Positions 42,207 through 59,814 of a stretch of 64,000 nucleotides of DNA are shown here, piece after piece. The number at the start of each line of letters is the position of its first letter. Position 1 is the stretch's first letter. The notes beneath the pieces are model-generated. The model saw only the letters and a list, made by a program, of their open reading frames with translations. It did no database searches and was not told the origin of the DNA. Both the position numbers and the translations under genes were made by a program. The DNA comes from Microlunatus antarcticus (lineage in GTDB: Bacteria > Actinomycetota > Actinomycetes > Propionibacteriales > Propionibacteriaceae), in the NCBI RefSeq assembly GCF_014193425.1, contig NZ_JACHZG010000001.1:2108001-2172000 (forward strand). The letters run 5' to 3'.

Positions 42207-43040
42207 GTGCGGCGGATCGTGCTGGCGGGTGGGGCCTACGTTCCTGTGCTGGGCTTGGGTACCTGGGGCTGGGGTGAGGACTCTGGTCGGCGTAGCGACG
42301 AGGTCGCAGCGTTGCGTTGCAGCCTGGATCTGGGCCTGAGCCTGGTCGACACGGCCGAGATGTACGCCGACGGTGGCGCGGAGGAGGTGGTCGGTGAGGC
42401 ACTGGCCGGTCGTCGCGATGAGGCGTTCGTGGTGAGCAAGGTGTTGCCGTCGCACGCGTCGCGTTCCGGCACCGTGGCGGCCTGCGAGCGCAGTCTCCGG
42501 CGCCTGGGCACTGACCGGATCGATCTGTACCTGCTGCACTGGCAGGGCGGGCACCCGCTGGAGGACACGATCGCGGCGTTCGGGTCGCTGGTCGACGTCG
42601 GGAAGATCCGCTTCTGGGGCGTCAGCAACTTCGACCACCGGGCCCTCGCCGACCTCGGGCAGCTGCCGGGCAGTGGCGGGCTGGCTACGGACCAGGTGCT
42701 GTACAACCTGTCGCGGGGGGGGCCGGAGTACGACCTGCTGCCGTGGTGCGTCGAGAACGAGCTGCCGGTGATGGCGTACTCACCGATCGAGCAGGGCCGC
42801 ATCCTGGCTGACGCGACGCTGGGCGACGTCGCGGCGGGGCACGGGGTCAGTCCTGCGGCGGCGGCCCTGGCGTGGGTGCTGCGCCGCGACTCGCTCTGCA
42901 CGATCCCGAAGGCGAGCAGCCCGCAGCACGTGCGCGACAACGCCACGGCACTGGACGTCGAGCTGACGTGGGACGACCTGGAAGCTCTCGACCGTGCCTT
43001 CCCGCCACCCAACGGACCTCGAGCTCTGGAAGTGCTCTGA
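42207..43040 (+). CDS. Aldo/keto reductase
   Basis: A 277-residue NADPH-dependent reductase. The catalytic tetrad is visible: Asp and Tyr in LVDTAEMYADGGAE, Lys in VVSKVLPSHA and His in LLHWQGGHPL. The cofactor loop is SPIEQGRIL and IPKASSPQHVRDN. GTG 42207 with GGAGGAG about ten bases upstream; longer frames lack family sequence. A C-terminal fragment of a close relative lies at 61296-61565. Confidence 0.88.
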   Translation: MRRIVLAGGAYVPVLGLGTWGWGEDSGRRSDEVAALRCSLDLGLSLVDTAEMYADGGAEEVVGEALAGRRDEAFVVSKVLPSHASRSGTVAACERSLRRLGTDRIDLYLLHWQGGHPLEDTIAAFGSLVDVGKIRFWGVSNFDHRALADLGQLPGSGGLATDQVLYNLSRGGPEYDLLPWCVENELPVMAYSPIEQGRILADATLGDVAAGHGVSPAAAALAWVLRRDSLCTIPKASSPQHVRDNATALDVELTWDDLEALDRAFPPPNGPRALEVL

Positions 43041-43270
43041 TCGTAGTGGAGGCTGCGGGCCTTTCCGCGTAGGAAGCCTGTGGTGGTCGGGCTCCGGTGC
43101 GGAGATCAGGCCGAGCGAGATCGTCTTCACGACGTAGCCGGTACATCGACCCCAAGAGCGCGTTTCTCCCGGCTGCGGCAGCCGCGCTCGGTCGAACCGG
43201 TGCACGCATCGACCTGGGTCCACCGCACACTGCCGTCGGGTGCGACGGCGGTTCGAGCGGATGCGAGAGC

Positions 43271-44260
43271 ATGTCGGGCGTGTCAGAGGATCCTGAGTCG
43301 GACGGCGAGCCGGACGCCCGCGACGACGGCGACGCGTCGGTGGGCCACCTGGAGCTGTTCTTCGACCTCGTCTTCGTCTACGCGATGTCGCAGGTCACCG
43401 AGCTGGTGAGCGCCGACGTCTCGTGGCAGGGGTTCGCGCATGGTGCGCTCGGCTTGCTGGCGGTGTGGTGGGCCTGGGTCTGCTACGCCTGGCTCACCAA
43501 CTCCTTCACCACGGCTCGGGTGGCGTACCGCTGCATGATCGTCGTCGCCATGGCGATGATGCTGCTGGCAGCGAGCGCGCTGCCGACCGCGTTCAGTACG
43601 GGGGCACTCGTCTTCGGGCTGGCCCTGCTCGGCGTCCGCGTCCTGCACCTGGTGATGTTCGCGGTGGCGGCCTCCCACGACGATCGACGACTCCGTGCGG
43701 CTTTGTTGCGGCTGGCCCCGGGCCTGCTCACCGGACCGGTACTGGTCGCCGTGGCCGCCGCGTTCTCGTCTCCGTATCGGGAGCTGCTCTGGGTCGGCGC
43801 AGCCGTCGTCGACTTCGGTGGACCTCTGGCGTTCGGGGTGAGGGGCTTCCGGGTGGTCCCCTCCTACTTCGTTGAGCGACACGGCCTGGTCGTCATCATC
43901 GTGCTCGGTGAGGCCGTCGTCGGGCTGGGCGGCGGCGCCGCGGAGCACCTCCGGCGGCCGGCCGTGCTCGTTGCCGCGGCCCTCGGGGTCCTGATCGCCG
44001 CCTCGTTGTGGTGGACCTACTTCGGTCTCTCCGCTGGCGCCGAGCAACGCCTGCAACGGGCGCAGGGGGACGAACGCGCCCGGCTGGCCCGCGACGCCTA
44101 CAGCTACCTGCACCTGTTCCTCGTCGCCGGGATCGGCTTCTTCGCCTTCGGCGCCCGCGAGGCGCTTCGCGGTGTCGCCGACCCGCTGCCGCTGCTCCTG
44201 GCGATCGCGCTCAGCGGTGGGGTCGGGCTGTTCTACGCGGCCGATGTCGCCTACCGGTAG
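43271..44260 (+). pseudogene. ltrA: LtrA-like membrane protein, in-frame stop
   Basis: The N-terminal HLELFFDLVFVYAMSQVTEL is the hallmark of low-temperature-requirement protein A, followed by about ten membrane helices. Translation stops at TAG 44258-44260 after DVAYR. The same frame continues without further stops to 44452 as REHHQLVPDRVLAAIACLL and a last membrane helix. Reading the TAG as Trp (TGG) would give 393 residues, the normal LtrA length. So this is a nonsense mutation or a recent truncation; the 329-residue product may still insert in the membrane. Confidence 0.8.
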
Positions 44261-44654
44261 CGTGAGCACCACCAGCTCGTGCCGGACCGCGTCCTCGCCG
44301 CGATCGCGTGCTTGCTCATCATCCCGGTCGCGACGTCCGTGCCCGCATGGGTTGCGCTCGTTGCGCTCACAGCCGTGGGCGCGGTGCGTCTGACGTGGGA
44401 ACTCGTGCGACGACCCCGGATAGGACCGGTCGCCGCCGGCCAAGTGCACTAGCCCACAGGACGTCGCGCAGCGCGACCGAAGCCCTCTGCCTGACCACCC
44501 TCTGCCTGGTTACCGCGGTCGTTCTGGTCACAGGCGCAACGTGTCCACGGCCCTCCGGCTGAGTAAGCCCGGGAGGACTGGGTTGCCGGACGGGCAGCTC
44601 GGGCGCCTAGGTGTCCCGAGGCCGCCACCGCGGCAACGGCCGGTCGGGGCTGGG

Positions 44655-45632
44655 TCATTTCGTCGATTCGGTAGCCCCGTTGGGCTGGAAGACGGCGCGC
44701 ACGCGACCGTCTTGCTTGTTCTTGAACATCTGGTAGCCCTGGGGACCTTGGTCGAGGGGCATCACGTGGGTGGCGAGGTGTTCGGTGTTGAGCTCACCGT
44801 CGGCGATGTGCTGCAGAATCCGGGGAATGTAGCGCTGGCCGTGCTGCTGAGCGCCGCGCACGGTCAGAGCCTTGTTCATCAGCGCGCCCATCGGGAACTT
44901 GTCGATGAACCCGCCGAAGACCCCAAGGACGAACAGGCCGCCCCCTTTGCGGCAGGCGTAGACCGCCTCCCGCAGGGCGGTGGGCCGGTCGGACTGCAGC
45001 CGCAGCTGCTGCTTGACCTGGTCGTACAGGTACGCAGGGCCGGTGCCGTGGGCCTCCATCCCGACGGCCTCGATGCACACGTCGGGACCGCGGCCGCCGG
45101 TACGTTCCTTGAGCTCGGCGATGACGCTGTCCTGGGTGTAGTCGAGCGTTTCGGCGCCGATGTGCTGGCGCACCTGCTGGAGGCGTTCGGGGAGCCGGTC
45201 GATGACGATGACCTGCTCGGCGCCATCAGCATCGCGGCGCGGGCGGCCATCTGCCCGACGCCGCCGGCGCCCCACACGGCGACGGTGTCGCCGGGGGTGA
45301 TGTCGGCGCCGTCGGCGCCGGTCCAGGCGGTCGGGGCGGCGTCGGAGGCGAACAGCGCGGCCAGGTCCGACACCCCGTCGGGGACGGTGAAGGCGCCCTG
45401 GTCGGCGTAGGGGACCCGGACGTATTCGGCGTGACTGCCGGCGAACCCGCCGAGCATGTGGCTGTAGGCGAAGCAGCCCCCGACGCTCGAGCCCCACAGC
45501 GTCTCGGTGAGCGCCGGGTTCGGGTTGCCGTTGTCGCACAGCGAGTACAACTGCTGCGAGCAGTACCAGCACTGCCCGCAGGCGATGAACGAGCAGACGG
45601 TGACGCGGTCCCCGACCTGGTGGTTGCGCACG
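44655..45632 (-). pseudogene. Zinc-dependent dehydrogenase, C-terminal part (split by transposon)
   Basis: This is the C-terminal three quarters of a medium-chain zinc dehydrogenase of the formaldehyde/alcohol group. It holds the structural zinc cysteines (CGQCWYCSQQLYSLC), the Rossmann loop AVWGAGGVGQMAARAAML and DVCIEAVGMEAHG. The N-terminal part is at 58320-58534 beyond the composite transposon. A second lesion is present: near 45221-45226 the frame shifts; adding one base restores MLMGAEQVIVIDRLPERL. Joining both parts at the target duplication plus this base gives exactly 398 codons. Confidence 0.88.
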
Positions 45633-45640
45633 GCTTTACC
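45633..45640. repeat. Target-site duplication, left (GCTTTACC)
   Basis: GCTTTACC lies directly left of the first ISL3 copy and recurs directly right of the second copy at 58320-58327. Eight bases is the usual duplication length for ISL3-family elements. Confidence 0.9.
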
Positions 45641-47112
45641 GGCTCTTCGTACCTGCGGTGGGGCGGGCGTGACACGCCGGTGAGGGCGGATGCGCTGAGG
45701 TGAGGGTCGGGGTCCTCAAGATCAGAGGCGACCAAGCTTCCGTTCCACAAGGACCCCGACGATGAGCGAGCCTACGGGCTGCGCTGGCGGCTGCCTGCGC
45801 ATCGACACCCACCACGACTACTGCGACCGTTGCGATCTGCTGGTCGGGCTACCCGGCTTGCGGGTGATCAAGGTCCACACCGAGCACCGACGGCTGGTGG
45901 TGACGGTGGAGTCGCCCCGGGCCGAGCAGGGCTGCCGGGCGTGTGGGGTGATCGCGGGCAGCCACGGTCGGCGGACCGTCCGGCTCGTCGACGCCCCCTG
46001 CTTCGGCCGACCGGTGCGCGTCGTGTGGCGCAAGCGGACCTGGGAGTGCGAGGAGCCGGCGTGCCCGGCCAGGGTGTTCACCGAGCAGCACGACGACGTC
46101 GCCCGGCCGCGGGCGTTGTTGACGGTGCGGGCGTGCTGGTGGGCGATTCGCCAGCTCCGCTTCGAGCACGCCTCGGTCCTCGGCCTGGCCCGTCAGCTCG
46201 GCACGTCGTGCGCACGCTGTGGCGCTCGATCGAGCCCTTGCTGCAGGACATGGCCGACGACCCGGACCGGTTCGACAACGTCACCAGCCTCGGCGTCGAC
46301 GAACACATCTGGCACCACGTCGACGAACGCCGGCGCGGGCCGAAGGCGTTGACCGGGATGGTCGATTTCAGCCCTGACCAGGCCGGACGCACCCGGGCCC
46401 GGCTGCTCGACCTCGTTCCCGGCCGGTCCGGAAAGGCGTACGCCGACTGGCTCGCGGCGCGTGGCGACGGATTCCGCCGCCGGGTCGCAGTGGCGACGTT
46501 GGACCCGTTCCACGGCTACAAGAACGCCATCGACGACCAACTCGCCGACGCGGTATCGGTGCTCGACGCGTTCCACGTCGTCAAGCTCGGCAGCCAGGTC
46601 GTCGACGAGGTCCGCCGCCGGGTCCAGCAGAGCATCCACGGCCACCGGGGCCGACGCGACGATCCGCTCTACAAGATCAGGAACGTGCTGCGCTGCGCCG
46701 AGGAACGCCTCACCGAACGACAGCAGGCGCGCCTCGCCGCGGCCATGGACGCCGACACCGCTCACCTCGAAGTGTTCGTGGCCTGGCAGTGCGCCCAACA
46801 ACTCCGGCGGGTCTACCACCAGCCCGACCCAGCCGCTGGCCGACGGCTTGCAGAGAACATCGTGACGACGTTCGCATCGTGCCCGATCCCTGAGGTCGCC
46901 CGCCTCGGACGGACCCTCAAGAAGTGGCGCCGAGAGTTCCTCGCCTACTTCGACACCGCCGGCGCCTCCAACGGCGGCACCGAAGCAGTGAACGGCCTCA
47001 TCGAGCTCCACCGGCGCGTCGCCCGCGGCTTCCGCAACCGCGAAAACTACCGCCTACGGATGCTGCTCATCGGCGGCGGACTGGTCAGCCCCCACCTCAA
47101 GTAAGAAGAGCC
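45641..47112 (+). mobile_element. ISL3-family insertion sequence, left copy
   Basis: Ends are imperfect inverted repeats: left GGCTCTTCGTACCTGCGG, right (reverse complement) GGCTCTTCTTACTTGAGG. The element carries one transposase frame. Every derived frame matches that in the right copy at an offset of 11,207 bp, so the copies appear identical. Confidence 0.92.
45762..47104 (+). pseudogene. ISL3 transposase, frameshifted (left copy)
   Basis: N-terminal part (to about 46210) has the zinc-ribbon cysteines GCRACGV and CEEPACPAR and helix-turn-helix FEHASVLGLARQLGTS. The C-terminal DDE domain continues in another frame: LGVDEHIWHHVD (Asp), VLDAFHVVKLG (Asp), GGTEAVNGLI (Glu). Adding one G between 46210 and 46211 reads GTSWRTLWRSIEP and gives 448 codons, normal for ISL3. 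The right copy has the same lesion. Whether it is inactivating, slippage or a systematic base-calling error is open. Confidence 0.85.
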
Positions 47113-47173
47113 CTCATACGGACCGGTCGACAGGTGATCTGCGTGACGCGGGGGACAGCGCCCGGAGCGCCAG

Positions 47174-48346
47174 TCAGACTGCTTCCAGGACCAGCGCGGC
47201 CCCCTGGCCGCCACCGCCGCAGATGCCGGCTGCGCCGACCGTCCCCGGACCCAGCGCGACGAGCCGGCGGGCGAGGTGGCCGACGATCCGGGCGCCCGAG
47301 GCACCGATGGGATGTCCGAGGGCTATCGCTCCACCGTGGGCGTTGACGAGACGGGGATCGAGCCCCAGCCGACGGGTGGAGTAGACCGCGACCGCGGCGA
47401 AGGCCTCGTTGATCTCGACGGCGCCGAGATCGCCAGGTCCCCACGACGTCTGACGCAGGGCGTCGGTAATGGCGTTGGCGGGTTGCGCCTGCAGGCCGAC
47501 GTCCGGGCCGCTGACGAGGCCGTGGGCCCGGACGTAGGCGAGCGGTCGTGTACCTCGTCGGTCGGCCGCCGCCTCGGACATCAGGACGAGAGCGGCTGCG
47601 CCGTCGGTGATCTGGGACGACGTCCCGGCGGTGATGGTCCCGTCGTCGCCGAACGCGGGCCTCAGCCGGGCCAGGGACTCCACGGTGGTGCCGGGTCGGA
47701 GGCCGTCGTCCTGGTCGACCCGCTGGTCGCCGCGTCGAGAGGTGAGCACGTACGGCTCGATCTCGGTGGCCTGGACCTCCGCGGACGCGGCCAGCCGCTG
47801 GTGCGACGCCGCGGCCCAGGAGTCCTGGTCCTCGCGCGTGATGCCGAGGTCGCGGTTGTGGTCCTCGGTCGAGGCCCCCATCGACCGGTGCTCGAACGCG
47901 TCGGTTAGGCCGTCGTGCTCCAGGGTGTCGAGCAGCTCCACCGCACCGTACCGACGACCGGTGCGGGACCCGGGCCACACGTGCGGCGCCAGGCTCATGG
48001 ACTCCTGGCCGACGGCGGCGACGATGTCGGCGTGGCCGGCCTCGATTAGACTGATAGCCTGGGCGACGGCCTCCATGCCCGACAGGCAGACCGCATTGAG
48101 TGTGATTGACGGGACCGTCAGCGGGATGCCGGCGGCGACCGCGGTCTGTCGAGCGGGGTTTTGGCCTGCGCCACCCTGAAGCACTTGGCCGCCGAAGACG
48201 CGCTCCACGGCGCCCGGCTCGGTGCCGGAGCGCAACAGGGCGGCCCGCAGGGCGTGCCCGCCGAGCCGGGTGGCGGGCACGTCAGCGAACAAGCCGGTGT
48301 AGCGGACGAACGCAGTGCGGGCGTAGCCCACGATCAGGGCCCTCAC
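47174..48346 (-). CDS. Thiolase (acetyl-CoA C-acyltransferase)
   Basis: A 390-residue thiolase. The acyl-carrying Cys is C87 in [36 protein letters not shown] and the second Cys in [12 protein letters not shown] complete the active site. It cleaves 3-oxoacyl-CoA. Last gene of the P450-reductase-CoA-transferase-thiolase operon, coupled to the CoA-transferase (GTGA). In the beta-ketoadipate route this pair gives succinyl-CoA and acetyl-CoA; the exact substrate is unknown. Confidence 0.9.
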
Positions 48347-49026
48347 GAGGTCCGGCCCTGGTCGGTCGGGTGCGGGTCCTCGGGGTCCACCATGAGCCTC
48401 ACGTCGAACGCGGCGCCGGTCTTCGTGCGGACCTCGTCGAGCCGGACCTGCGGGCCGAGCGCCCGCAGGACGAGCCCGGCGGGCCCGACGTCGAAGACGG
48501 CGAGATCAGTGATGATGCGCTGCACGACGCGGGCACCGGTAAGCGGCAGGTCGCAACGCTTCACGATCTTAGGGGTGCCGTCCTTGGCGACGTGGTCGGT
48601 GACGACCACGACCCGGGGGGTCCCAGCTACCAGGTCCATCGCCCCGCCCATCCCCTTGACGAACTTCCCCGGAATCGTCCAGTTCGCGAGGTCGCCGTGC
48701 TCGGAGACCTGCAGGGCGCCGAGGATGGCGATTTGGACGTGGCCGCCCCGGATCATGGCGAACGACGTCGCCGAGTCGAAGATGCTGGCTCCCGGGAGCA
48801 GCGTCACGGTCTGCTTGCCGGCGTTGATAAGGTCGGCGTCCTCGGTCCCCTCCTCGGGGAAGGGACCCATGCCGAGAATGCCGTTCTCGCTCTGGAGGGT
48901 GACTCTGACGCCGGGCGGCAGGTGGTTGGCGACGAGGGTGGGGATCCCGATCCCGAGGTTGGCGTACTCCCCGTCGCGCAGCTCGCGGGCGGCGATGGCG
49001 GCCATGTCGTCGCGGGTCCACGCCAT
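48343..49026 (-). CDS. 3-oxoacid CoA-transferase, subunit B
   Basis: A 227-residue family I CoA-transferase beta subunit. The catalytic Glu lies in the [11 protein letters not shown] motif; [13 protein letters not shown] and [12 protein letters not shown] are also typical. ATG shares a base with the subunit A stop. Likely PcaJ- or ScoB-like. Confidence 0.9.
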
Positions 49027-49775
49027 CAGGCTGCTCCGCCCGGTCCAGCGGCGGCCCGGGTCGCCCGGGTGGCGGCGGTCCTGGGTCGCACGGTCCGGTT
49101 CTCGATCGGCTTCGAGCGCGCGGTGCACGGCACGAGTCGTTGGACGAAGATCCCCGGGGTCACCACCTGGTCGGGGTCGAGGTACGTCTCGTCGAGGATG
49201 AGCTCGGCCTCGGCGATGCACACCCGCCCGCAGGTGGCGACGAGCGGGTTGAAGTTGCGGGCCGTCAGGCGGTAGCCGAGGTTGCCCTCAGCGTCCGCGA
49301 CGTGGGCGTGCACGAGGGCGACGTCGGCGACGATCCCACGCTCGAGCAGGTAGTCCTCGCCGTCGAACCGCTGCACCTGCTTGCCCTCGGCGACGGGGGT
49401 GCCCACGCCCGTCCGGGTGAAGAAGCCGGCGATGCCCGCCCCACCCGCCCGCATCCGCTCGGCCAGGGTGCCCTGGGGGGTGAACTCGACCTCGAGCACT
49501 CCATCGAGGTACTGCCGTGCGAACAGCCGGTTCTCCCCGACGTAGGAGGCGATAACCTTCGCGACCTGGCGGTTCTCGAGCAGGAGCCCGAGCCCCTGAC
49601 CGTCGACCCCCATGTTGTTCGACACGACCGTCAGGTCCTGCACCCCGGAGTCGCGGACCGCCTCGATCAGGTCGCTGGGGTTGCCGCTGAGACCGAACCC
49701 GCCGACCGCCACCGTCTGGCCGTCGGCCAGCACATCGCGCAACGCCTCGACGGCCGTGGACCAACGCTTCGTCAC
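49026..49775 (-). CDS. 3-oxoacid CoA-transferase, subunit A
   Basis: A 249-residue alpha subunit: [58 protein letters not shown] chose the GTG at 49775 behind GGAGG; a longer upstream frame is Arg-rich and lacks family sequence. The C-terminal 30 residues (Arg/Thr/Ala-rich) extend beyond the family core. Confidence 0.9.
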
Positions 49776-49889
49776 CGACCCTGCCTCCGTGCGCCCCCGG
49801 CGCCTCGATTGCCTGTCCTGGCCGTACCGGGTCCAGGAGTGGGCTCGCCGACCGCGCCCGGCCGGGTTTGACACCTAAGGGTCACAGCC

Positions 49890-50912
49890 CTAGGCGCTGA
49901 CGTCGAGGCCGACCGGCAGGGGGGCCGGGGTGAACTCCTCGCGGAAGATCCGCGCGGGCCGCATCCGCCGCTTCTTGAAGGTGTGCACCGCGGCTGCCAC
50001 CATCGGCGGCGGGCCGCAGATGTAGCCGCTCATCCCGCGGCAGGTCAGGAAGTCGGCGGCGACGGCGTCGGTTACCATGCCGGTCGCACCGACCCACCGC
50101 TGCTCGCTCAGGACCGGGACGTACCGGAAGCCCGGCCCCTCCAGCGACCGGAACAGCTCCTGGTCGTACAGGTCCTCGTCCCGGCGTCCTCCGTGGTACA
50201 GATGGATGTCGTCGGCCAGGTCGTGCTCGATCGCATGGAGCACCATGGCCTTTAACGGCGCCAGCCCGGTCCCGCCCGCCACCAGCACGACGGGTCCCTC
50301 CTCGGGCTCGGTCAGGCGGAACGACCCGAGCGGGCCCTGCATGCGCACCCGCTCGCCCACCGCGAGGGACGCGAAGATCCACCTCTCGGTGGCCAGGCCG
50401 CCCGGCGTCAGCCGGACATGCAGCTCGATCGAGCCGTCCTGCGAGGGTGGGTTGGCGATCGAGTAGGCGCGTCGCAGGGGTGAGCCAGGGATGTGCAGCT
50501 CGACGTACTGGCCCGCGTCGAAGTCGAGCGGCTCGTCGAGGTCGATGACCAGACGCAGGGTCTCGCGGGCCACCAGCTCCCGATGTGAGACGCGTCCCTC
50601 GAGGTCGCGGAGCCGGTGACGTGGCGTTGTCGTGGCCACGGTGCCCAGCAGCTCGCCGCGCACGTCGGTGAGCGGCGTCGACCGGCACGCGAGCGCGAAG
50701 CCGGTCGCGCGGTCGGCTTGGGGCAGCACGTCCTCGAGCGAGTCACGATGGTCGACGAAGCCCTCGAGCACCCTGAACCGGCAGGTGCCGCACGTGCCCT
50801 GGGAGCAGTTGTGCGGGATCCAGCGGTTGGCGCGCAGCGCCGCGTCCAGGATGCTCTGGCCGTCCGCGGTGGTGAACTCGGCGACTCCGGCCAGCGTGAC
50901 GCGGTGGCTCAC
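49890..50912 (-). CDS. Ferredoxin-FAD-NADH reductase (P450 partner)
   Basis: A 340-residue three-part electron transferase. Residues 1-95 are a plant-type [2Fe-2S] ferredoxin (HNCSQGTCGTC with the fourth ligand in FALAC); then the FAD domain with RRAYSIANP; then the NAD domain with GGTGLAPLKAM and YICGPPPM. This is the plan of BenC and of GcoB, the single-component reductase of the guaiacol O-demethylase P450 system. GTG 50912 lies three bases after the P450 stop, so it is the dedicated partner. Confidence 0.9.
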   Translation of the reverse strand: MSHRVTLAGVAEFTTADGQSILDAALRANRWIPHNCSQGTCGTCRFRVLEGFVDHRDSLEDVLPQADRATGFALACRSTPLTDVRGELLGTVATTTPRHRLRDLEGRVSHRELVARETLRLVIDLDEPLDFDAGQYVELHIPGSPLRRAYSIANPPSQDGSIELHVRLTPGGLATERWIFASLAVGERVRMQGPLGSFRLTEPEEGPVVLVAGGTGLAPLKAMVLHAIEHDLADDIHLYHGGRRDEDLYDQELFRSLEGPGFRYVPVLSEQRWVGATGMVTDAVAADFLTCRGMSGYICGPPPMVAAAVHTFKKRRMRPARIFREEFTPAPLPVGLDVSA

Positions 50913-50914
50913 CG

Positions 50915-52120
50915 TTACACGTCCCAGCGGACGCGGACGTGCTCCGGTCCGCGGAACGCCCAGCCGTGGAACGTGACGTCCTCGGTCAGCTCCATGGTCG
51001 GGATCGACTGGAACAGCTCCTCGAGCGCCACGCGAACGATCTGGGTGCCCAGGTACGCGCCGGCGCACGCGTGGGAACCCGCCCCGAACCCCAGGTGCGG
51101 CTGCAGCGGACGGTCGAGGTCGAACCGGTCGGGGGCGGTCCAGATCTTCTCGTCCCAGTTGGCGGCGCCGTAGGCCATCAGGACCGCGGTACCCGCGGGC
51201 AGGTCGAGGCCCCCGACGTGCACGTCACGCGTCGCCACCTTGGCGGCGGCGGCGAAGATCGGGGCGACCCAGCGCAGGCTCTCCGACACTGCGCGGGGGA
51301 TGAGCGTCGCGTCGTCGACCACGCGGTCGAACTGGTCGGGCGAGCGGAGCAGACCCACCAGGGTGGTCGCCATCAGGTGGCCGGGCTCCTGGAGGGCGCC
51401 GAGCAGGTACACGTTGATGTTCGAGTAGATGATCTCGCGGTCGCGGGTGCTCCCCTCGGTCAGGCCGTCGTGCAGCCAGTGCGAGATGAGGGTGTGCCCG
51501 GGCCGCTCGGCCCACTGGTCGAGCAGCGGGTCGACGATCTCGCGCACCTCGCGCTTGGCCCGGTCCGCTGCGGCGAAGCCGTCGGGGTCGGCCCAAGTAC
51601 CGTCCGGTCCGACGGCGACGTTACGCGCACCCTCGGCCAGCGCCTTGAACCACTCGGCCAGCTTGTCCTCGCTGACCTGGTCCAGCCCCATCACGTCGCC
51701 GACCGCCCGGACGCTGACCGGCACGAAGTACTCCGCCTGCAGGTCGGCGGTGCCGTTGTCCTCGATCCGCTCGAGGAGGCGTCGGGCGTACGGCCGCACC
51801 AGCGAGTCGATGTACTCGTCGACCGCGGACGGTCGCAGGTAGGGGTCCATCATCGCGCGCAGACCCCGGTGGTCCTCGCCGTTCGCGCTGAGCACGGTGC
51901 CCTCGCCGTGCGTCCGGTGGCCCGAGGGGGAGATCACCCCGTGCCAGGTCTCGGGGTCCTCGGTCAGCTGCCGGTTAATCTCGTAGCTTGAGGCGACGTA
52001 CATGCCGACCTCGGGTACCCAGGAGATGGGCGCCTCCGCCCGGAGCCGCGCGTGGATCGGCTGCGGGTCGTCCTCCAGCTGCGCGGCGGTGACGTCGTCG
52101 ATCCAGGTGCTCGTGCTCAC
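50915..52120 (-). CDS. Cytochrome P450
   Basis: A 401-residue soluble bacterial P450. The haem-binding loop is GFGAGSHACAGAYLG with the Cys ligand; the K-helix ExxR is ESLRW. The I-helix reads NVYLLGALQEPGHLM: the usual acid-Thr pair is replaced by Glu-Pro, so oxygen activation may differ from the norm. GTG 52120 with GAGGAGAAG upstream. Adjacent to a GcoB-type reductase; this resembles the CYP255 (GcoA) arrangement, but substrate and family need comparison. First gene of the five-gene operon. Confidence 0.9.
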   Translation of the reverse strand: MSTSTWIDDVTAAQLEDDPQPIHARLRAEAPISWVPEVGMYVASSYEINRQLTEDPETWHGVISPSGHRTHGEGTVLSANGEDHRGLRAMMDPYLRPSAVDEYIDSLVRPYARRLLERIEDNGTADLQAEYFVPVSVRAVGDVMGLDQVSEDKLAEWFKALAEGARNVAVGPDGTWADPDGFAAADRAKREVREIVDPLLDQWAERPGHTLISHWLHDGLTEGSTRDREIIYSNINVYLLGALQEPGHLMATTLVGLLRSPDQFDRVVDDATLIPRAVSESLRWVAPIFAAAAKVATRDVHVGGLDLPAGTAVLMAYGAANWDEKIWTAPDRFDLDRPLQPHLGFGAGSHACAGAYLGTQIVRVALEELFQSIPTMELTEDVTFHGWAFRGPEHVRVRWDV

Positions 52121-52330
52121 GGGTCTTCTCCTCGACGTTGGGGGCTCCGGTCGACCGGGCTGCACGATCGCTCCGTGGGTCCGAGCGGCAGCCAGGCGGT
52201 GGTCCGATTCTGGGCGCGCGCCCTCGTCCCGATCAATCCCGGGTTCCTGAAGTCAACCTTCGGAGATGCCGAACGATCCGTGGTAGAACAGTGCGGCCGA
52301 CGCCAGCTGGGTACGAGCGTGGAGGGCGAG

Positions 52331-53233
52331 ATGAACCTGCGCCAGATGGAGTGCTTCCTCACCGTGTGCGAGGAGCTCCACTTCCGACGAGCAGCCGACC
52401 GGTTGCACCTCGCGCCGGCGAGCGTGAGTGAGGCGGTCGGCGCCCTCGAGCGCAGCCTGGGTGTCCAGCTGCTGCAGCGCACGAGCCGACGAGTCCGCCT
52501 CACCCCGCAGGGTGAGGAGTTCGCTGCGGCGATCCGGCAGCCGATCGAGGATCTCCGGCGGGCCCATCGGGCGGCGCGGCGGCACTCGGCCTCCGCTCGC
52601 GAGCTGGTCATCGGGCACACGCCGGAGCTGGGCCAGCTGCTGCTGGGACGGCTGGTCGAAGCCAGCTCGGGGGCCGACGCCCTGCCGTCGTGGCGGCCGC
52701 TGCCGATGCACACCCCGCAACAGCTGACCGCCCTCACCGACGGCGCGATCGACATCGGGCTGTGCTGGTCGGTCCCGTCCCGGCCGGGCGTGGAGAGCCG
52801 TGTTCTCGGCGAGGTGCCCCTCGTTGTCGTCCTGCGTGCGGACGACCCCCTCGTGTCCCGGCGGGTCGTCCCGCTGGTCGAGCTGCGGTCCCGGCGGATC
52901 CTGGTGACGCCGCGGACGAACAACCCCTACCTGGAGCGGCAGCTGCGGGCGGGGCTCACCATGGCCGGCATCTCCGACTCTCTGGTCGAGGAGGTGGAGC
53001 GCTACGACGAGCTCGTGATGCACGTCGCGACCCGCGGCCACGTCGGCCTGCACCCCGGAGCCATCGCACTGACGAGCACGCTGTCCACCGTGGTGTTCCG
53101 ACCGGTCGCCGACGCGGACCCGATCCAGGTCTGCGCCATCACGCGGACCGAGGCGCGACCCGACCGGACCGCGGTCGTCGACGCCATCGCCGAGATCTTC
53201 GCCTCGATGACGACCGCGGCCGGGTGGGGCTGA
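52331..53233 (+). CDS. LysR-family regulator of the catabolic cargo
   Basis: A 300-residue LysR protein: MNLRQMECFLTVCEELHF and SVSEAVGALERSLGVQLLQR form the winged helix; residues 90-295 the effector domain. GGAGGGCGAG precedes the ATG. It lies between the two cargo operons, divergent from the P450 operon, and convergent with DUF3500 (6 bp apart). It probably controls the P450 operon. Confidence 0.88.
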   Translation: MNLRQMECFLTVCEELHFRRAADRLHLAPASVSEAVGALERSLGVQLLQRTSRRVRLTPQGEEFAAAIRQPIEDLRRAHRAARRHSASARELVIGHTPELGQLLLGRLVEASSGADALPSWRPLPMHTPQQLTALTDGAIDIGLCWSVPSRPGVESRVLGEVPLVVVLRADDPLVSRRVVPLVELRSRRILVTPRTNNPYLERQLRAGLTMAGISDSLVEEVERYDELVMHVATRGHVGLHPGAIALTSTLSTVVFRPVADADPIQVCAITRTEARPDRTAVVDAIAEIFASMTTAAGWG

Positions 53234-53239
53234 CGCCAG

Positions 53240-54478
53240 TCAGGCGTGGTGGTGCGCGGCGTAGTGCTGGGCGAGCAGGTTCTTGCCGTAGTCGTTGCCG
53301 TGCGGCTCCCGCACGATCGTGTGGACGTGGAACCGCGCCGGTTCGGGGTTGGCCAGGAACACCCCGGGATGGTTGTCGTACTCCACGAGGAGGACCGGGG
53401 AGTGGATGCGGTAGTAGAAGGCGGACTCGTCGTCCTGGCCGCCGCGCCAGAGGAACCGGGTCTCGTCCAGGTGGCCGAGGACCTGGGCCAGCTTCCGCTC
53501 GGCGTGCTGCTCGGGGAGACGTCCGAGGTAGACCCTGAGCAGGTCGACCAGGCCGTCCTGCTGGTCCCTGCTCAGCGACGACGCGACGATGCCTTCGGGT
53601 CGGAGCACGAGGTTGTCACGTCCGGCCCCGCCCACGTGCCGGCCGTTCCAGGGTCCCGCGAGCTCTGGCGGCAGGTCCGCCGCGCGGATCGACGCACTGA
53701 GGACGAACTCGTGCTCCCGCTCCGCCCCGAGAGCGCGGCGGAACGCCAGCCCGGTCTCGGTCTCCTCGTCGAGAGCAGCCACGCCTTCGAACCGTCCGCT
53801 GCCGGAGGTGGGTTCGGCGCCGAGGAACGAGGGTGCGAAGACCATCTGCCCGCCCACGAAGACGCAGTGCAGGTCGATGTGGTGGCCCATTAGCTGCCAG
53901 CCCCACGGCTCGACCGACGACGGTTCACCGAAGACCGTGAACCAGTAGGCGAACTCCGTGAGCGTGTCCTGGTAGTCGCCGATCAGCTCGCCGAGGTTGG
54001 CGTTCAGTCTCATCGCCGAGCGCACCGACGTGTACCCGGCGCTGCTCAGGCTGGCCTCGATCACGGCCAGGGCACGCTCGCGGTCGGCGGCGCCCAGCCG
54101 TTCAAGGCGCATGCCCTTCGGGATCCAGGTGGGGATGGCGTTCGTCCACAGCCGCCACTCCGGCGCGTCCATGGGCAGCGCACCGACGACACGTTGGTAG
54201 GGAGCGAGCCCACTGAGGTAGCGACGGGCCGCGTCCGCCGCGCGGCTCGGGCGGACCTCGACCTGGTCGAGCTGGTAGAGCCCGGGACGGGGCGTCCCGT
54301 CTTCGGTGATACCGACGAAGGGTTCGAGGTAGTGGCGGAACCCGGCCGAGAGCTCGTGGGCGGGGACCTCGGGCAGCAGGTCGGCGAACAGCAGCGAGTC
54401 GACGATCGGCAGGGTGCCGCGTGCGGCGGGCACGGGGAACGGCGGCCGGGTCACTCCGGAGCCGCGGGGGTGGGTCAT
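53240..54478 (-). CDS. DUF3500 family protein
   Basis: A 412-residue protein. FAYWFTVFGEPSSVEPWGW followed by LMGHHIDLHCVFVGGQMVF, FLGAEPTSG, HSPVLLVEYDNHPGVFL and the end HTIVREPHGNDYGKNLL match the DUF3500 family. The many conserved His, Glu and Asp suggest metal binding, but no activity is known. I chose ATG 54478 with GAGGAG upstream; ATG 54493, overlapping the NTF2-like stop, is an alternative. Last gene of the cupin operon. Confidence 0.82.
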   Translation of the reverse strand: MTHPRGSGVTRPPFPVPAARGTLPIVDSLLFADLLPEVPAHELSAGFRHYLEPFVGITEDGTPRPGLYQLDQVEVRPSRAADAARRYLSGLAPYQRVVGALPMDAPEWRLWTNAIPTWIPKGMRLERLGAADRERALAVIEASLSSAGYTSVRSAMRLNANLGELIGDYQDTLTEFAYWFTVFGEPSSVEPWGWQLMGHHIDLHCVFVGGQMVFAPSFLGAEPTSGSGRFEGVAALDEETETGLAFRRALGAEREHEFVLSASIRAADLPPELAGPWNGRHVGGAGRDNLVLRPEGIVASSLSRDQQDGLVDLLRVYLGRLPEQHAERKLAQVLGHLDETRFLWRGGQDDESAFYYRIHSPVLLVEYDNHPGVFLANPEPARFHVHTIVREPHGNDYGKNLLAQHYAAHHHA

Positions 54479-54489
54479 CGAGGCACTCC

Positions 54490-54963
54490 TCATTCGGTGG
54501 GGACGGCGAGCACGCCGCCGGGGGCGAGGAACCTGGTCTCGATCCGGCGCGCGGCGATCAGCCAAACCGGGCGGCCGTCCCCGTCGCGGTCGGCCGCGCG
54601 GACGAAGGTGTCGTAGACGTCCGCCACCAGGACCGGGACGGTCGTGGGGACCGGTGGTTCTCCGTCCTGGGCGTACAGGGTCAGGATCGACACGGCCTCG
54701 ATGGCGGCGGGCGCACGGACGGTGAGGTGCAGGTTGGTCGTCACGTGGCGCGACACGCGCGGACCGCGCGCTGCGCGGGTGCGGTAGACCCCGTCGATCT
54801 CAGCGGTCCCGACGAAGGTTCGCCGCGAGAACGTGAGGCTGGCGTCCGGGGTGAAGAAGGTCGAGGCCAGGGTCCCGTCGCCGTGGTCGATGTCGAACCA
54901 CAGCGCGGACATCAGCAGGGACAGCTCGCCGTGCACGAGCGCTGCCGGGAGTGCCTCACCCAA
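54490..54963 (-). CDS. NTF2/SnoaL-like protein
   Basis: A 157-residue protein with an NTF2-like cone fold: helices at the start (LVHGELSLLMSALWFDIDHG), TFFTPDASLTF, the strand pair VSRHVTTNLHLTV and a C-terminal LIAARRIETRF. Such proteins include polyketide cyclases, isomerases, hydratases and small dioxygenase subunits. TTG 54963 is chosen because GGAGGAGG lies about seven bases upstream; it overlaps the aldolase stop by eight bases. Confidence 0.72.
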   Translation of the reverse strand: MGEALPAALVHGELSLLMSALWFDIDHGDGTLASTFFTPDASLTFSRRTFVGTAEIDGVYRTRAARGPRVSRHVTTNLHLTVRAPAAIEAVSILTLYAQDGEPPVPTTVPVLVADVYDTFVRAADRDGDGRPVWLIAARRIETRFLAPGGVLAVPTE

Positions 54964-55699
54964 CGTCGGCCTCCTCCGACCGGGCCCGGGCTCGCGCGAC
55001 CGCAGCGGAGGCGCCCGACCGGAGGAGCCCGGCGTCGGTACCGAGGACGAGGAACCGGTAGCCGCGTCCGACCAGGTCGACGGCGTCGTCGGCGGCCGTC
55101 GTGCCGACCGGGATGTCGTGGATGGCGCAGCTCTGCTCGGCCGCGACGATCAGCGCCCGCGCAGCCGGGTCGCCGAGCTCCACGCCCATCGATACGGCGA
55201 GGTCGGACGGCCCGATGAACACCCCGTCGACCCCAGGAGTTTGCGCGATGGCGACGATGGCGGCTAGCGCGCCGGGCGTCTCGGTCTGCAGGATCAGCTT
55301 GACGTCGCTCCCCGCTTCGATGTACTCAGCCAGGCTCTGCACACCCCAGTGGCCGGCGCGTCCGGAATTGCTGGCCCCTCGGCGCCCAAGCGGTGGGAAG
55401 CGGGTGGCGTTGACGGCGCGTTGCGCGTCGGACGCGTCGCCGACCTGGGGGACGAACAGGCCGTGGGCGCCGGCGTCCAGTGCGGGCTGGACGTCGCGGG
55501 GGGAGACCCCGGCCACTCTGACGTAGGGCTCGATGCCGCAGCCCAGAGCGGTCGAGATCATCGTGGAGATCGTCCGGATGTCGATGGTCGCGTGCTCGTC
55601 GTCGACGACGACAAAGTCGAGTCCGGCGACGGCGAGAAGCTCAACGGTCTCGGGCGTCGGCAGCTTCACCCACGCCCCGAGACGTGGCCCCGGCGTCAC
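54956..55699 (-). CDS. HpcH/HpaI-type aldolase
   Basis: A 247-residue (beta/alpha)8 class II aldolase: LDFVVVDDEHATID (catalytic His/metal region), GAHGLFVPQVGDA, LILQTETPGAL with the metal Glu, and GVDGVFIGPSDLAVSMG with the metal Asp. These cleave 4-hydroxy-2-oxoacids to pyruvate or oxaloacetate-like products. GTG 55699 overlaps the cupin stop. It suggests the pathway includes a retro-aldol step. Confidence 0.9.
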   Translation of the reverse strand: MTPGPRLGAWVKLPTPETVELLAVAGLDFVVVDDEHATIDIRTISTMISTALGCGIEPYVRVAGVSPRDVQPALDAGAHGLFVPQVGDASDAQRAVNATRFPPLGRRGASNSGRAGHWGVQSLAEYIEAGSDVKLILQTETPGALAAIVAIAQTPGVDGVFIGPSDLAVSMGVELGDPAARALIVAAEQSCAIHDIPVGTTAADDAVDLVGRGYRFLVLGTDAGLLRSGASAAVARARARSEEADVG

Positions 55700-56535
55700 G
55701 CGCTCGTGCCCGCGTACTCGTCGGCGTTGATGACCCAGCCCTCGGCGAGAAAGTCCTCGCGCGGCGGGGCGAAGACGTCGACGAGGACGTGCGCCCCCTC
55801 GCCCGTCCAGCTGGTGGTGTGGATGAGGTTGGGCGGGATCAGCACCATCGAGGGGCTGTCGACGCTCACGTGGTCGTCGTCGCGCCACTCGCTCATCCGG
55901 GTGGTCCAGGGGGTTCGGAAGTGGTGGACGAACGCACCCTGCAGCGTCACCGACATCTGCTCGAAGTCGTCGTGCGCGTGGGGTGAGAGGGCTTCCGGGT
56001 CCCGGGCGCCGATCTTGGTCGGGAACCAGTTGATCATCAGCGAGCTGGTGCAGAAGATCCGCCCGAGCCGTCCCGGCTGGTCGGGGATCTGCGACATGCG
56101 GTGCACCCGCAAGCGGCCGCCGCTGCGGATGGCGTCGGTCAGGAGCGGTGCGACGGCGGGATCGTCGTGCGGCCCGTCGTTCACCGCGAGGCGCATGAGC
56201 TCGGCGTCGTGGGCGGCGAACACGCGGAGGACGACGGTGTCCCTGGCGGCCTCGATCGTGCTCCGCCCGGCCGGGACGACCACCAGCGAGGGCTCGGTCA
56301 GTCTCTCGGATCGTCCTGCAGAGTCCGTGACGACGGCTCCCGCGTCGTCGGCGACGATCAAGATGTGTTCGTCGACCGCGTGGGGTTCGACCAGAGGGAT
56401 GCCGGCCACCAGCTCGGTGACGGCGACCGCGAAGTTCTTGCCGCGCAGGGACCAGGTCCGGCTTCCCCCGACCGCGACGCTGTCGGGAGGACGTCGACGC
56501 GTCTCGTCGACGACGGGGGTACGAACAGGGGTCAC
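55696..56535 (-). CDS. Bicupin protein
   Basis: A 279-residue protein with two cupin barrels. The C-terminal one has a full metal set: SPHAHDDFEQMSVTLQGAF (His, His, Glu) and VLIPPNLIHTT (His). The N-terminal one (HAVDEHILIVADDAG) is degenerate. Cupins of this size include ring-cleaving dioxygenases and isomerases; I cannot tell which. GTG 56535 has GGAGGA six bases upstream. First gene of the four-gene operon, 72 bp from tandem palindromes. Confidence 0.78.
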   Translation of the reverse strand: MTPVRTPVVDETRRRPPDSVAVGGSRTWSLRGKNFAVAVTELVAGIPLVEPHAVDEHILIVADDAGAVVTDSAGRSERLTEPSLVVVPAGRSTIEAARDTVVLRVFAAHDAELMRLAVNDGPHDDPAVAPLLTDAIRSGGRLRVHRMSQIPDQPGRLGRIFCTSSLMINWFPTKIGARDPEALSPHAHDDFEQMSVTLQGAFVHHFRTPWTTRMSEWRDDDHVSVDSPSMVLIPPNLIHTTSWTGEGAHVLVDVFAPPREDFLAEGWVINADEYAGTSA

Positions 56536-56606
56536 GAAGATTCCTCCACTGGGTGGGTGTGTGCCTGGCAAGACTCCCGTTTCAATTGGGACGGATCAAT
56601 CGTCAA

Positions 56607-56637
56607 GTTCCGACCGGAACGTTCGGTAGAACCGAAC
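56607..56637. promoter_or_regulatory. Tandem palindromes upstream of the cupin operon
   Basis: Two abutting palindromes: GTTCCG-AC-CGGAAC (56607-56620) and GTTCGGT-AGA-ACCGAAC (56621-56637). The second resembles IclR-family operators, which centre on GTTCG...CGAAC. No IclR gene is in the window, so the regulator is unknown. Confidence 0.65.
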
Positions 56638-56847
56638 CAGTGGGCGGAATGACGGATCAGAGCCGTGCCCCACCAGAAGAGGCGCACGAACGGCCCCACC
56701 GAAGAAGTCGGCGAGCGTGGAAGCGACCGCGACGTCGGCGGGACCCACGGTGCCAATCGGCCGAGCTCGTCGGCGAGTGCCGCGTGAAAGAGGTCGAGAT
56801 GCGTCGCGACGCTCTTGGCAAGAACGACCACTTCGGCGGGCAAATCC
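56638..56847. other. Cargo edge next to right ISL3 copy
   Basis: 210 bp between the palindromes and the right ISL3. A minus-strand frame entering from the IS (AEVVVLAKSVATHLDLFHAA) could be the tail of a gene cut by the IS, but I cannot identify it. Confidence 0.4.
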
Positions 56848-58319
56848 GGCTCTTCGTACCTGCGGTGGGGCGGGCGTGACACGCCGGTGAGGGCGGATGC
56901 GCTGAGGTGAGGGTCGGGGTCCTCAAGATCAGAGGCGACCAAGCTTCCGTTCCACAAGGACCCCGACGATGAGCGAGCCTACGGGCTGCGCTGGCGGCTG
57001 CCTGCGCATCGACACCCACCACGACTACTGCGACCGTTGCGATCTGCTGGTCGGGCTACCCGGCTTGCGGGTGATCAAGGTCCACACCGAGCACCGACGG
57101 CTGGTGGTGACGGTGGAGTCGCCCCGGGCCGAGCAGGGCTGCCGGGCGTGTGGGGTGATCGCGGGCAGCCACGGTCGGCGGACCGTCCGGCTCGTCGACG
57201 CCCCCTGCTTCGGCCGACCGGTGCGCGTCGTGTGGCGCAAGCGGACCTGGGAGTGCGAGGAGCCGGCGTGCCCGGCCAGGGTGTTCACCGAGCAGCACGA
57301 CGACGTCGCCCGGCCGCGGGCGTTGTTGACGGTGCGGGCGTGCTGGTGGGCGATTCGCCAGCTCCGCTTCGAGCACGCCTCGGTCCTCGGCCTGGCCCGT
57401 CAGCTCGGCACGTCGTGCGCACGCTGTGGCGCTCGATCGAGCCCTTGCTGCAGGACATGGCCGACGACCCGGACCGGTTCGACAACGTCACCAGCCTCGG
57501 CGTCGACGAACACATCTGGCACCACGTCGACGAACGCCGGCGCGGGCCGAAGGCGTTGACCGGGATGGTCGATTTCAGCCCTGACCAGGCCGGACGCACC
57601 CGGGCCCGGCTGCTCGACCTCGTTCCCGGCCGGTCCGGAAAGGCGTACGCCGACTGGCTCGCGGCGCGTGGCGACGGATTCCGCCGCCGGGTCGCAGTGG
57701 CGACGTTGGACCCGTTCCACGGCTACAAGAACGCCATCGACGACCAACTCGCCGACGCGGTATCGGTGCTCGACGCGTTCCACGTCGTCAAGCTCGGCAG
57801 CCAGGTCGTCGACGAGGTCCGCCGCCGGGTCCAGCAGAGCATCCACGGCCACCGGGGCCGACGCGACGATCCGCTCTACAAGATCAGGAACGTGCTGCGC
57901 TGCGCCGAGGAACGCCTCACCGAACGACAGCAGGCGCGCCTCGCCGCGGCCATGGACGCCGACACCGCTCACCTCGAAGTGTTCGTGGCCTGGCAGTGCG
58001 CCCAACAACTCCGGCGGGTCTACCACCAGCCCGACCCAGCCGCTGGCCGACGGCTTGCAGAGAACATCGTGACGACGTTCGCATCGTGCCCGATCCCTGA
58101 GGTCGCCCGCCTCGGACGGACCCTCAAGAAGTGGCGCCGAGAGTTCCTCGCCTACTTCGACACCGCCGGCGCCTCCAACGGCGGCACCGAAGCAGTGAAC
58201 GGCCTCATCGAGCTCCACCGGCGCGTCGCCCGCGGCTTCCGCAACCGCGAAAACTACCGCCTACGGATGCTGCTCATCGGCGGCGGACTGGTCAGCCCCC
58301 ACCTCAAGTAAGAAGAGCC
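56848..58319 (+). mobile_element. ISL3-family insertion sequence, right copy
   Basis: 1,472 bp, same ends and same orientation as the left copy. Its right end supplies the outer border of the composite transposon. Confidence 0.92.
56969..58311 (+). pseudogene. ISL3 transposase, frameshifted (right copy)
   Basis: Same reading frames and same missing base (between 57417 and 57418) as in the left copy. Identical lesions mean that the base was absent before the copies formed, that the copies were homogenised, or that the base is miscalled in both. Confidence 0.85.
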
Positions 58320-58327
58320 GCTTTACC
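58320..58327. repeat. Target-site duplication, right (GCTTTACC)
   Basis: Matches 45633-45640 exactly and directly abuts the right end of the composite transposon. Confidence 0.9.
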
Positions 58328-58534
58328 GACCTCGACCACCTCGCCCATGAACTCGTGACCGAGGACGTCGCCGGCGCGCATGGCCGGGATGTAGCCGCCG
58401 AGCAGGTGCAGATCGGAGCCGCACGTGGTGGTCAGTCGTACCTTGAGGATGATGTCGCGGTCATTGAGGATCTTGGGGTCGTCGACCGTCTCCACGGCGG
58501 TCTCGTTGACGCCTCTCCAGGTGAGAGCCTTCAC
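58320..58534 (-). pseudogene. Zinc-dependent dehydrogenase, N-terminal part
   Basis: Encodes MKALTWRGVNETAVETV through VLGHEFMGEVVEVGKA, the first 71 residues of the split dehydrogenase, with the catalytic zinc ligands in TTCGSDLH and GHEFMGE. It then runs into the transposon and stops after LLT. The ATG overlaps the stop of the upstream gene (ATGA). See 44655-45632 for the remainder. Confidence 0.9.
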
Positions 58535-59025
58535 AGCACTCCTTCCCCGGAGGCGCGGTCGGTTGCCAGGTCCACCAGCGCGCCGCCCGGTGTGGACGTC
58601 CGGCGGCCGTGGGGCGCCGGGTCGACGCGCAGCACCTCACCGACCTCGATCAGCTGCTTGGCCTCGCGCAGCGCGGCCCGAACTCGTTGCCGCGGGTCGT
58701 GGCCCGAGATGCGGGCAGCCGCTGATGCGGCCCCGCTCGGTTCGGGGGTTTGAAGTCGGGCGCGAAGCTCGCTGCCCTTGCCGCCCGGGGCGGGACGGAC
58801 CTCGACCTCGACGAGGTCGCCGAGCTCGGCCAATGGGCCGGGCAGGTGGTCTTCGACGAGGACGTCGCCGGGGCTGCGGTTGATGGTGACGGCCCGCCAG
58901 CGCGACCGCGCCTCGGCGTCCTTGCTCGCTCCTGCTGCCACGCGTCGCTGCAGCTGTCGGACCAGCGCGACAACGGCACCCCCCACGGCCAGCGCCGCCG
59001 CCACGCTGGTCCCGCGGGAAGTCAT
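58531..59025 (-). CDS. Conserved protein of unknown function
   Basis: A 164-residue protein with an N-terminal hydrophobic anchor (AAALAVGGAVVALVR), then RAVTINRSPGDVLVEDHLPG resembling the first strand of SRPBCC-type proteins, and a C-terminal ALREAKQLIEVGEVLRVDP. It overlaps both neighbours by four bases, placing it in the pfpI-dehydrogenase operon. Function unknown. Confidence 0.65.
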   Translation of the reverse strand: MTSRGTSVAAALAVGGAVVALVRQLQRRVAAGASKDAEARSRWRAVTINRSPGDVLVEDHLPGPLAELGDLVEVEVRPAPGGKGSELRARLQTPEPSGAASAAARISGHDPRQRVRAALREAKQLIEVGEVLRVDPAPHGRRTSTPGGALVDLATDRASGEGVL

Positions 59026-59591
59026 CGGGCACCCTCAGCGGCGACGCCGGCGCCGCCGAACGTCTTCACGATCGCCTCGCAGAACGCGGGCAGGTCGTCG
59101 GGGGACCTGCTGGTGACGAGGTTGCCGTCGATGGCGATCTCCTGGTCGACCACGGTGGCGCCGGCGTTGCGCAGGTCGGTGCGGATGCTGGGGAACGAGG
59201 TCAGGGTCCGACCGGACACGACGCCGGCCTCGAGCAGCGTCCACGGCCCGTGGCAGATCGACGCGACCGGCTTCCCGCTCTCCATGAAGTCCCGGACGAA
59301 GCTGACCGCGGCCTGGTCGATGCGCAGCTTGTCGGGGTTGACCGTGCCTCCAGGCAGTAGCAACGCGTCGTAGTCCTCGACCGCCGCGGACCGCACGAGC
59401 GCGTCGACGTCGAAGGTGCCGGCGTCGTCGAGGTCGTTGTTACGTGCCGCGATCTGCCCGTCGTGCAGGGACAGCAGCTCGGTGCGCGCCCCCGCCTGGT
59501 CCAGCGCCTGGCGGGGCTGCTCCAGCTCGACCCGTTCCACGCCGTCGGCGGCGAGGATCGCCACCCGCTTGCCGTTCAGTTCGCCTGCCAT
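59022..59591 (-). CDS. DJ-1/PfpI-family protein
   Basis: A 189-residue class I glutamine-amidotransferase-like protein. The nucleophile is in SICHGPWTLLEAG, and LLLPGGTVNPDKLR is the acidic loop. The family includes PfpI proteases and YhbO-type glyoxalase/deglycases, which act on reactive carbonyls, fitting the aldehyde dehydrogenases in this operon. Confidence 0.88.
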   Translation of the reverse strand: MAGELNGKRVAILAADGVERVELEQPRQALDQAGARTELLSLHDGQIAARNNDLDDAGTFDVDALVRSAAVEDYDALLLPGGTVNPDKLRIDQAAVSFVRDFMESGKPVASICHGPWTLLEAGVVSGRTLTSFPSIRTDLRNAGATVVDQEIAIDGNLVTSRSPDDLPAFCEAIVKTFGGAGVAAEGAR

Positions 59592-59764
59592 GACTTCTCC
59601 TTTGCCTGCTGTGATCTGTCGGTTGTGTTCATGGGGGCGACCGCAGCTGAGCGCGGCCGACTGACTTGGGTCAGGCGGCCGGCGAAGTGACCGGAGTTCA
59701 CCGCTTCGCCGAACGCCGTCTGTGCTTTCTCGTTGGCGTCACGGATGGGATGGAGGATGCTCAC
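59576..59764 (-). CDS. Small protein (62 aa), unknown
   Basis: GTG 59764 has AGAGGA six bases upstream. The product begins VSILHPIRDANEKAQTAF and is soluble and polar. It ends 16 bases inside the PfpI gene. Position and ribosome site support it; no family is recognised. Confidence 0.45.
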   Translation of the reverse strand: MSILHPIRDANEKAQTAFGEAVNSGHFAGRLTQVSRPRSAAVAPMNTTDRSQQAKEKSWQAN

Positions 59765-59814
59765 GCAGGTCCTCTCATGGCGGTCGAGCCTTCGGGTCGG
59801 ACGGCGGGCGGACT

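Follow-up and report, generated by a model that had tools for sequence, protein, structure and literature searches.

A probable composite transposon with ISL3-family ends and a predicted aromatic-degradation gene set in Microlunatus antarcticus

Introduction

Composite transposons built from ISL3-family insertion sequences (ISs) are already known as a kind, and the unit described here, two direct IS copies around a set of catabolic genes in a 64,000-nucleotide stretch of the actinobacterium Microlunatus antarcticus (assembly GCF_014193425.1, contig NZ_JACHZG010000001.1; the whole stretch is referred to below as the window), is a further example with different cargo. As cited in passages of PMC1590026 and PMC8058222, Tn14751 of Corynebacterium glutamicum, with the ISL3-like element IS31831, is likewise a composite transposon native to an actinobacterium; its ends are of the ISL3 type and its chromosomal cargo measures 17.4 kb. 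Both its IS and its cargo differ from those of the M. antarcticus unit. Transposition of Tn14751 has reportedly been studied experimentally, whereas the present unit is known from sequence alone. A second relative is an ISL3-flanked iron-uptake unit of Brevibacterium and Glutamicibacter, with ISAar39 and ISAar42, which according to the relevant section of PMC6579920 could be a composite transposon; it is an 11.8-kb region in which a metabolic gene cluster lies between ISL3 elements, and it is shared by actinobacteria. Unlike the unit described here, its two ISs are dissimilar (the transposases share 65% amino-acid identity), and that section of PMC6579920 gives neither a target duplication nor an empty site.

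With respect to cargo, the closest likeness is to the GcoAB system, in that the cytochrome P450 of the unit matches GcoA, the best match of the reductase is the structure 5ogx and their genes lie side by side. In contrast to GcoAB, this pair, a predicted O-demethylase, stands beside a DUF3500/HpcH block and a 3-oxoacid coenzyme A (CoA)-transferase/thiolase set, on a composite transposon. None of the papers found on ISL3 composite and catabolic transposons seems to describe this cargo, as far as titles and the beginnings of abstracts reveal (most subscription papers lay outside the scope of the search), and in passages of one paper found for GcoA, guaiacol and transposons the word 'transposon' occurs once, in the title of a reference. 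A first-pass annotation of the same DNA had called composite transposons of ISL3 elements that carry aromatic or other catabolic genes uncommon, which may be fair, but Tn14751 and the iron-uptake unit show that the kind is not new.

Architecture of the unit

The two IS copies (45,641–47,112 and 56,848–58,319, both on the plus strand) are each 1,472 bp long, 100% identical and in direct orientation; they enclose 9,735 bp of cargo, so that the whole unit spans 12,679 bp (45,641–58,319). The transposase matches DDE_Tnp_ISL3 (PF01610, 4.5e-53), as expected of an ISL3-family element; a zinc-ribbon match falls below the cut-off. ISL3 elements carry terminal inverted repeats that start with GG and typically duplicate 8 bp of their target. 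The repeats found here are 23 nt long, 87% matched (GGCTCTTC) and begin with GG. To the left of the copies the identity extends by two more bases (CC), which is taken as coincidence.

Directly outside the IS pair, the 8-mer GCTTTACC occurs on each side (45,633–45,640 and 58,320–58,327, without strand) and nowhere else in the window on either strand; at the composition of the window, two given 8-mers would match by chance with p = 5e-5. The inner flanks of the ISs are unequal, CTCATACG versus GCAAATCC, and therefore neither copy has a duplication of its own. Both the direct ISL3 copies and the outer duplications reported in the first-pass annotation are thus borne out. Two features of a class I composite transposon are present, namely one IS in two copies around genes unrelated to transposition, and a duplication that surrounds the whole unit and is absent at the inner IS ends; a third, an unoccupied target in relatives, is provided by comparative genomics.

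An unoccupied site in relatives

The unit interrupts a gene for a zinc-type alcohol dehydrogenase on the minus strand. The 5′ part of this gene (58,320–58,534, start inferred) has an ADH_N match (6.6e-9) and the 3′ part (44,655–45,640) an ADH_zinc_N match (3.9e-14); both domains are found in the dehydrogenase of the relative L006. When the unit and one duplication are removed, ...GEVVEVGKA is joined in frame to VRNHQVGDRVTV..., as in the unsplit proteins of relatives, and the flanking DNA joined through one 8-mer reads ...GEVVEVGKAVRNHQVGDRV..., likewise in frame. The first-pass annotation had the gene rejoining in frame, and at the junction it does. The gene as a whole is not repaired: a second lesion, the loss of one nucleotide near 45,222, lies about 0.4 kb downstream of the junction, and a complete frame is therefore not recovered when the transposon is taken out. 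This lesion fits decay of a gene that was already disrupted; in four relatives (L006, L007, L008 and L011) the dehydrogenase is one open frame.

A search with the right flank covered 57 genomes, including that of M. antarcticus itself, and six returned loci (L006, L007, L008, L011, L014 and L015) were compared with the window. At all six loci inspected, from 56 other genomes searched, the left flank runs straight into the right flank with nothing between them, which is the unoccupied form of the target. In L006 and L007, from the same genus (genomes G011 and G017), both flanks align at 83–89% identity and the 8-bp position is present once, the alignments overlapping at the duplicated bases (window position 45,641 corresponds to base 1509, and 58,320 to base 1501). 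The insertion is therefore the derived state.

Related elements and their targets

Full copies of the IS in the host genome, as searched (18 contigs, 4.37 Mb, 95% complete), number only two, both at this unit; two further, weak matches (67–69%) come from a diverged element of the ISL3 family near 62–63 kb of the window. The transposase of the latter (62,013–63,149, minus strand), 3.7 kb from the unit, is a single open frame with a DDE_Tnp_ISL3 match of 1.8e-52 and about 40% amino-acid identity to the element of Microbacterium, which makes it too different for an obvious helper role.

Relatives of the IS were gathered from other genomes, with 12 loci of the host left out and with both ends required to match in at least 18 of 23 bases. 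Their matched parts are 65–74% identical to the IS at the DNA level. Five of the six complete relatives are flanked by perfect 8-bp duplications (L080 with CGTTATCG, L133 with CCCAATCT, and L136, L137 and L138), the duplication length of the ISL3 family that is also seen in the outer pair of the unit. Targets of this IS group are mostly G/C at the ends and A/T in the centre, a pattern to which both inner flanks of the unit conform; since it was first seen on the very set on which it was scored, it serves as support rather than as a formal test. The IS query found matches at E ≤ 1e-60 in 7 of 393 other genomes of the class (best 74%). A lone right end of an IS relative in another genome of the genus (L036, genome G010, positions 1501–1800) is 82% identical over about 300 bp, its terminal repeat matching in 23 of 23 bases before continuing into CCTTTACG, which suggests that this IS group was already active in the genus at an earlier time.

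Origin and decay of the unit

Overall, the unit is probably a class I composite transposon in which two direct ISL3-family copies surround a catabolic gene set, as the first-pass annotation had also proposed, and the unoccupied form in relatives strengthens this view. In the simplest history, two single insertions would have placed IS copies on either side of the cargo genes in a donor, as suggested by the resemblance of the inner flanks to the A/T-centred 8-bp targets of the IS group; the transposase would then have cut at the two outermost ends and moved the whole unit into the dehydrogenase gene, duplicating 8 bp. We infer that this movement took place in one step. Alternatively, a lone IS with its 8-bp duplication could have arrived in the dehydrogenase gene first, and a circle carrying the cargo and one IS could later have recombined homologously with it. 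Such a history predicts exactly the structure observed, the complete identity of the two copies fits homologous exchange, and circles of ISL3-like elements have been reported, as discussed in a part of PMC3812183. Given this shared anatomy, and the second lesion in the dehydrogenase gene, the earlier statement that the transposon was 'proven' by target duplication and gene repair went too far. However, two separate arrivals would be required, yet the genome holds no other full IS copy, and a single IS occupies the site in none of the six relatives inspected; positive evidence for this route was not found, and we consider it unlikely.

The transposase genes themselves are disrupted. Compared with the intact element of Microbacterium paraoxydans, both carry the same one-nucleotide frameshift, near 46,209 in copy 1 (gene 45,762–47,104, plus strand, in the two frames 45,762 to about 46,208 and about 46,211 to 47,104) and near 57,416 in copy 2 (gene 56,969–58,311, plus strand). 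As both copies have the same frameshift, they would share a single event, one copy having been copied from, or corrected by, the other. Among ten copies from relatives whose alignments cover the site, the window transposase is gapped against nine; in the tenth (L141) a separate, larger deletion is present. Programmed frameshifting was considered and rejected: no slippery heptamer could be seen at the site by eye, and for this reason, together with the gap against nine of the ten relatives, it is simpler to assume that one base was lost.

A sequencing error at the same place in both copies, which would leave the unit still active and is compatible with its being a composite transposon, is favoured by the breaks in the two transposases, each of which resembles the omission of a single base within G-rich sequence. 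As a control for frameshifts, a codon-usage scan of the whole window identified 23 frame switches on the same strand with gaps of at most 40 nt. In 20 of them the upstream frame closes within 1–63 nt, which is the behaviour of separate neighbouring genes; only three stay open far beyond the switch, namely the disrupted dehydrogenase (345 nt) and the two transposase copies (152 nt each). Random error would not keep to these three genes, so that general sequencing error is an improbable source of the frameshifts, which are probably genuine; we regard error in both copies as distinctly improbable.

For the composite transposon, this would mean that one IS copy lost one transposase nucleotide, either after the insertion or already in the donor, and that both copies then became identical. 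The unit is now probably unable to make a full transposase or to move by itself, and would be immobile unless transposase were supplied from elsewhere. Since both transposases are frameshifted, a search for circular intermediates is less promising than the first-pass annotation had suggested. The least credible alternative is an assembly artefact, in which cargo that truly lies elsewhere was joined here through the IS copies: these are identical 1.5-kb repeats, but the assembly carried on through them within a contig of 3.8 Mb, the cargo with one IS shows no replication gene (nine of its ten open reading frames (ORFs) being identified) and would be no replicon by itself, and in relatives the two outer flanks are contiguous.

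Several observations weigh against the composite-transposon reading. The outer duplications would look the same after one-step transposition as after recombination with an IS already in place, and the present sequence shows no working transposase, both genes being frameshifted. Three of the six unoccupied loci (L011, L014 and L015) show only that the gene is unsplit, without establishing the same chromosomal place. One of the six complete IS relatives (L037, genome G032, positions 1501–2967) has unequal flanking 8-mers, GGTTAACC versus GGGAAACC, and is possibly a recombination product or part of a larger unit. Neither a donor copy nor a second location of the unit was found. Finally, the GC content of the cargo is 71.1%, versus 70.2% outside the unit, and its tetranucleotide distance is 0.134, versus 0.087–0.164 for 11 slices of the host, towards the upper end of that range; foreign composition was accordingly discarded as a sign of transfer, as these values do not mark the cargo as foreign.

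Cargo genes

The cargo comprises ten ORFs, all open and free of internal stops, of which nine lie on the strand opposite the transposases; expression driven from the ISs was considered and rejected, as the transposases read on the plus strand. Its first set runs on the minus strand and consists of a GcoA-like cytochrome P450 (50,915–52,165), a GcoB-like reductase (49,890–51,020, start approximate), subunits A (PcaI/ScoA family, 49,026–49,772, start approximate) and B (PcaJ/ScoB family, 48,343–49,020, start approximate) of a 3-oxoacid CoA-transferase, and a thiolase of the acetyl-CoA C-acyltransferase family (47,174–48,346); a LysR-type regulator (52,349–53,233, plus strand, start approximate) is divergent from the P450 gene. 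Pfam and NCBIfam models support the assignments of the transferase subunits, the thiolase and the regulator. Almost the full length of the P450 is covered by its matches to GcoA structures, at about 1e-143 (5ncb, 2e-143), and its top match is 9ia1 (3.5e-145), labelled only Cytochrome P450; presumably the cargo P450 belongs to CYP255. The reductase has 2Fe-2S, FAD and NAD domains, and its match to 5ogx ('Cytochrome P450 reductase', 2.2e-90), which we take to be GcoB, is far above any other. A GcoA-type P450 thus adjoins a single reductase with these three domains, as in GcoAB.

The second set, also on the minus strand, consists of a cupin-like protein (55,696–56,571), an HpcH/HpaI aldolase (54,956–55,705; Pfam, NCBIfam), a SnoaL_4-domain protein (54,490–54,963; Pfam) and a DUF3500 protein (53,240–54,487; PF12006, 5.7e-89), a putative ring-opening enzyme according to a proposal in the literature. 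The first of these has no Pfam match and is tentatively called cupin-like from its 58% identical Embleya homologue, for which the sole Pfam hint is a sub-threshold PCO_ADO match. Neither transposase nor replication domains are present in the nine cargo ORFs with Pfam matches; no Rfam family matches positions 43,000–60,500, and the window contains no tRNA genes.

Judged from these predicted functions, the cargo probably enables its host to O-demethylate a methoxylated aromatic, to process the ring by means of the DUF3500 protein and the aldolase, and to carry out CoA-dependent thiolysis, and it brings its own regulator; the ten genes together probably serve the degradation of aromatics of the plant type. 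For a classical catechol pathway, the host yielded a single weak intradiol match (32 bits) and a single match of the LigB type (77 bits).

At E ≤ 1e-80, homologues of the P450 are absent from the other 19 genomes of the genus, of which several are incomplete, and are present at 44–50% identity in three of 197 other genomes of the family (those 19 included); at E ≤ 1e-120 the P450 has matches of 52–54% identity in two of 393 others in the class sample, and a single-sequence search of named genomes and viral contigs returned no relative. The DUF3500 protein has no match at E ≤ 1e-100 among 395 others in the phylum sample. At the DNA level the cargo has only partial matches in the genus, the long ones at 64–76% identity and mostly in the thiolase and CoA-transferase genes.

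A recurrent DUF3500 block

DUF3500 proteins are little studied. One of them, AN10530 of Aspergillus nidulans, has been proposed as the ring-opening enzyme of fungal gallate breakdown, according to the part of PMC12388069 concerned with it. AN10530 and the cargo protein have the Pfam family name in common; AN10530 is fungal and its role is only proposed, whereas the bacterial block adds HpcH aldolase, SnoaL_4 and cupin-like partners. A single solved DUF3500-like chain was found (9x86, 'Amc20', 4.4e-29).

When named genomes were scanned with an alignment of three DUF3500 sequences, 38 loci were obtained, viewed with flanks of up to 10 kb, some loci being short. The cupin-like, HpcH, SnoaL_4 and DUF3500 genes stand together in 13 of them (L096, L098–L104, L106, L107 and L109–L111), seven from records labelled Streptomyces and the rest from Embleya, Catenulispora, Nonomuraea, Umezawaea, Kitasatospora and a Marmoricola metagenome-assembled genome; the four genes are also present at a locus on an Embleya plasmid (L082). 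Other parts of the cargo are scarce at the 38 loci: a CoA-transferase pair occurs within three, a LysR regulator at 62–63% identity in two, and P450 matches in two, at 24–29% only, while the transposase of the unit is absent from all 38 at E ≤ 1e-12. In the few loci looked at for partners, these vary, with Acyl-CoA_dh_2-type proteins, perhaps flavin oxygenases, in L096 and L103, and a Rieske protein on a Streptomyces chartreusis plasmid.

Tentatively, and with more doubt than confidence, the cargo may be read as a self-contained mobile aromatic pathway, in which a GcoA-type O-demethylase would yield a polyhydroxylated ring, the DUF3500 protein, not a classical dioxygenase, would open it, and the aldolase, CoA-transferase and thiolase would lead the products to central metabolism. 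The DUF3500 block would then represent a module that recurs and combines with oxygenases of different types (flavin, Rieske or P450), captured here on a composite transposon.

Concluding remarks

By uniting a DUF3500 gene with genes for a predicted P450 O-demethylase and for CoA thiolysis, the mobile unit offers a compact test system for the role of DUF3500. If the cargo does encode a self-contained pathway, a single insertion could allow a host to grow on a methoxylated aromatic. This well-preserved, probable composite transposon, with its unoccupied form in relatives, indicates that ISL3 elements can bring a gene set for the degradation of aromatics into an actinobacterium.

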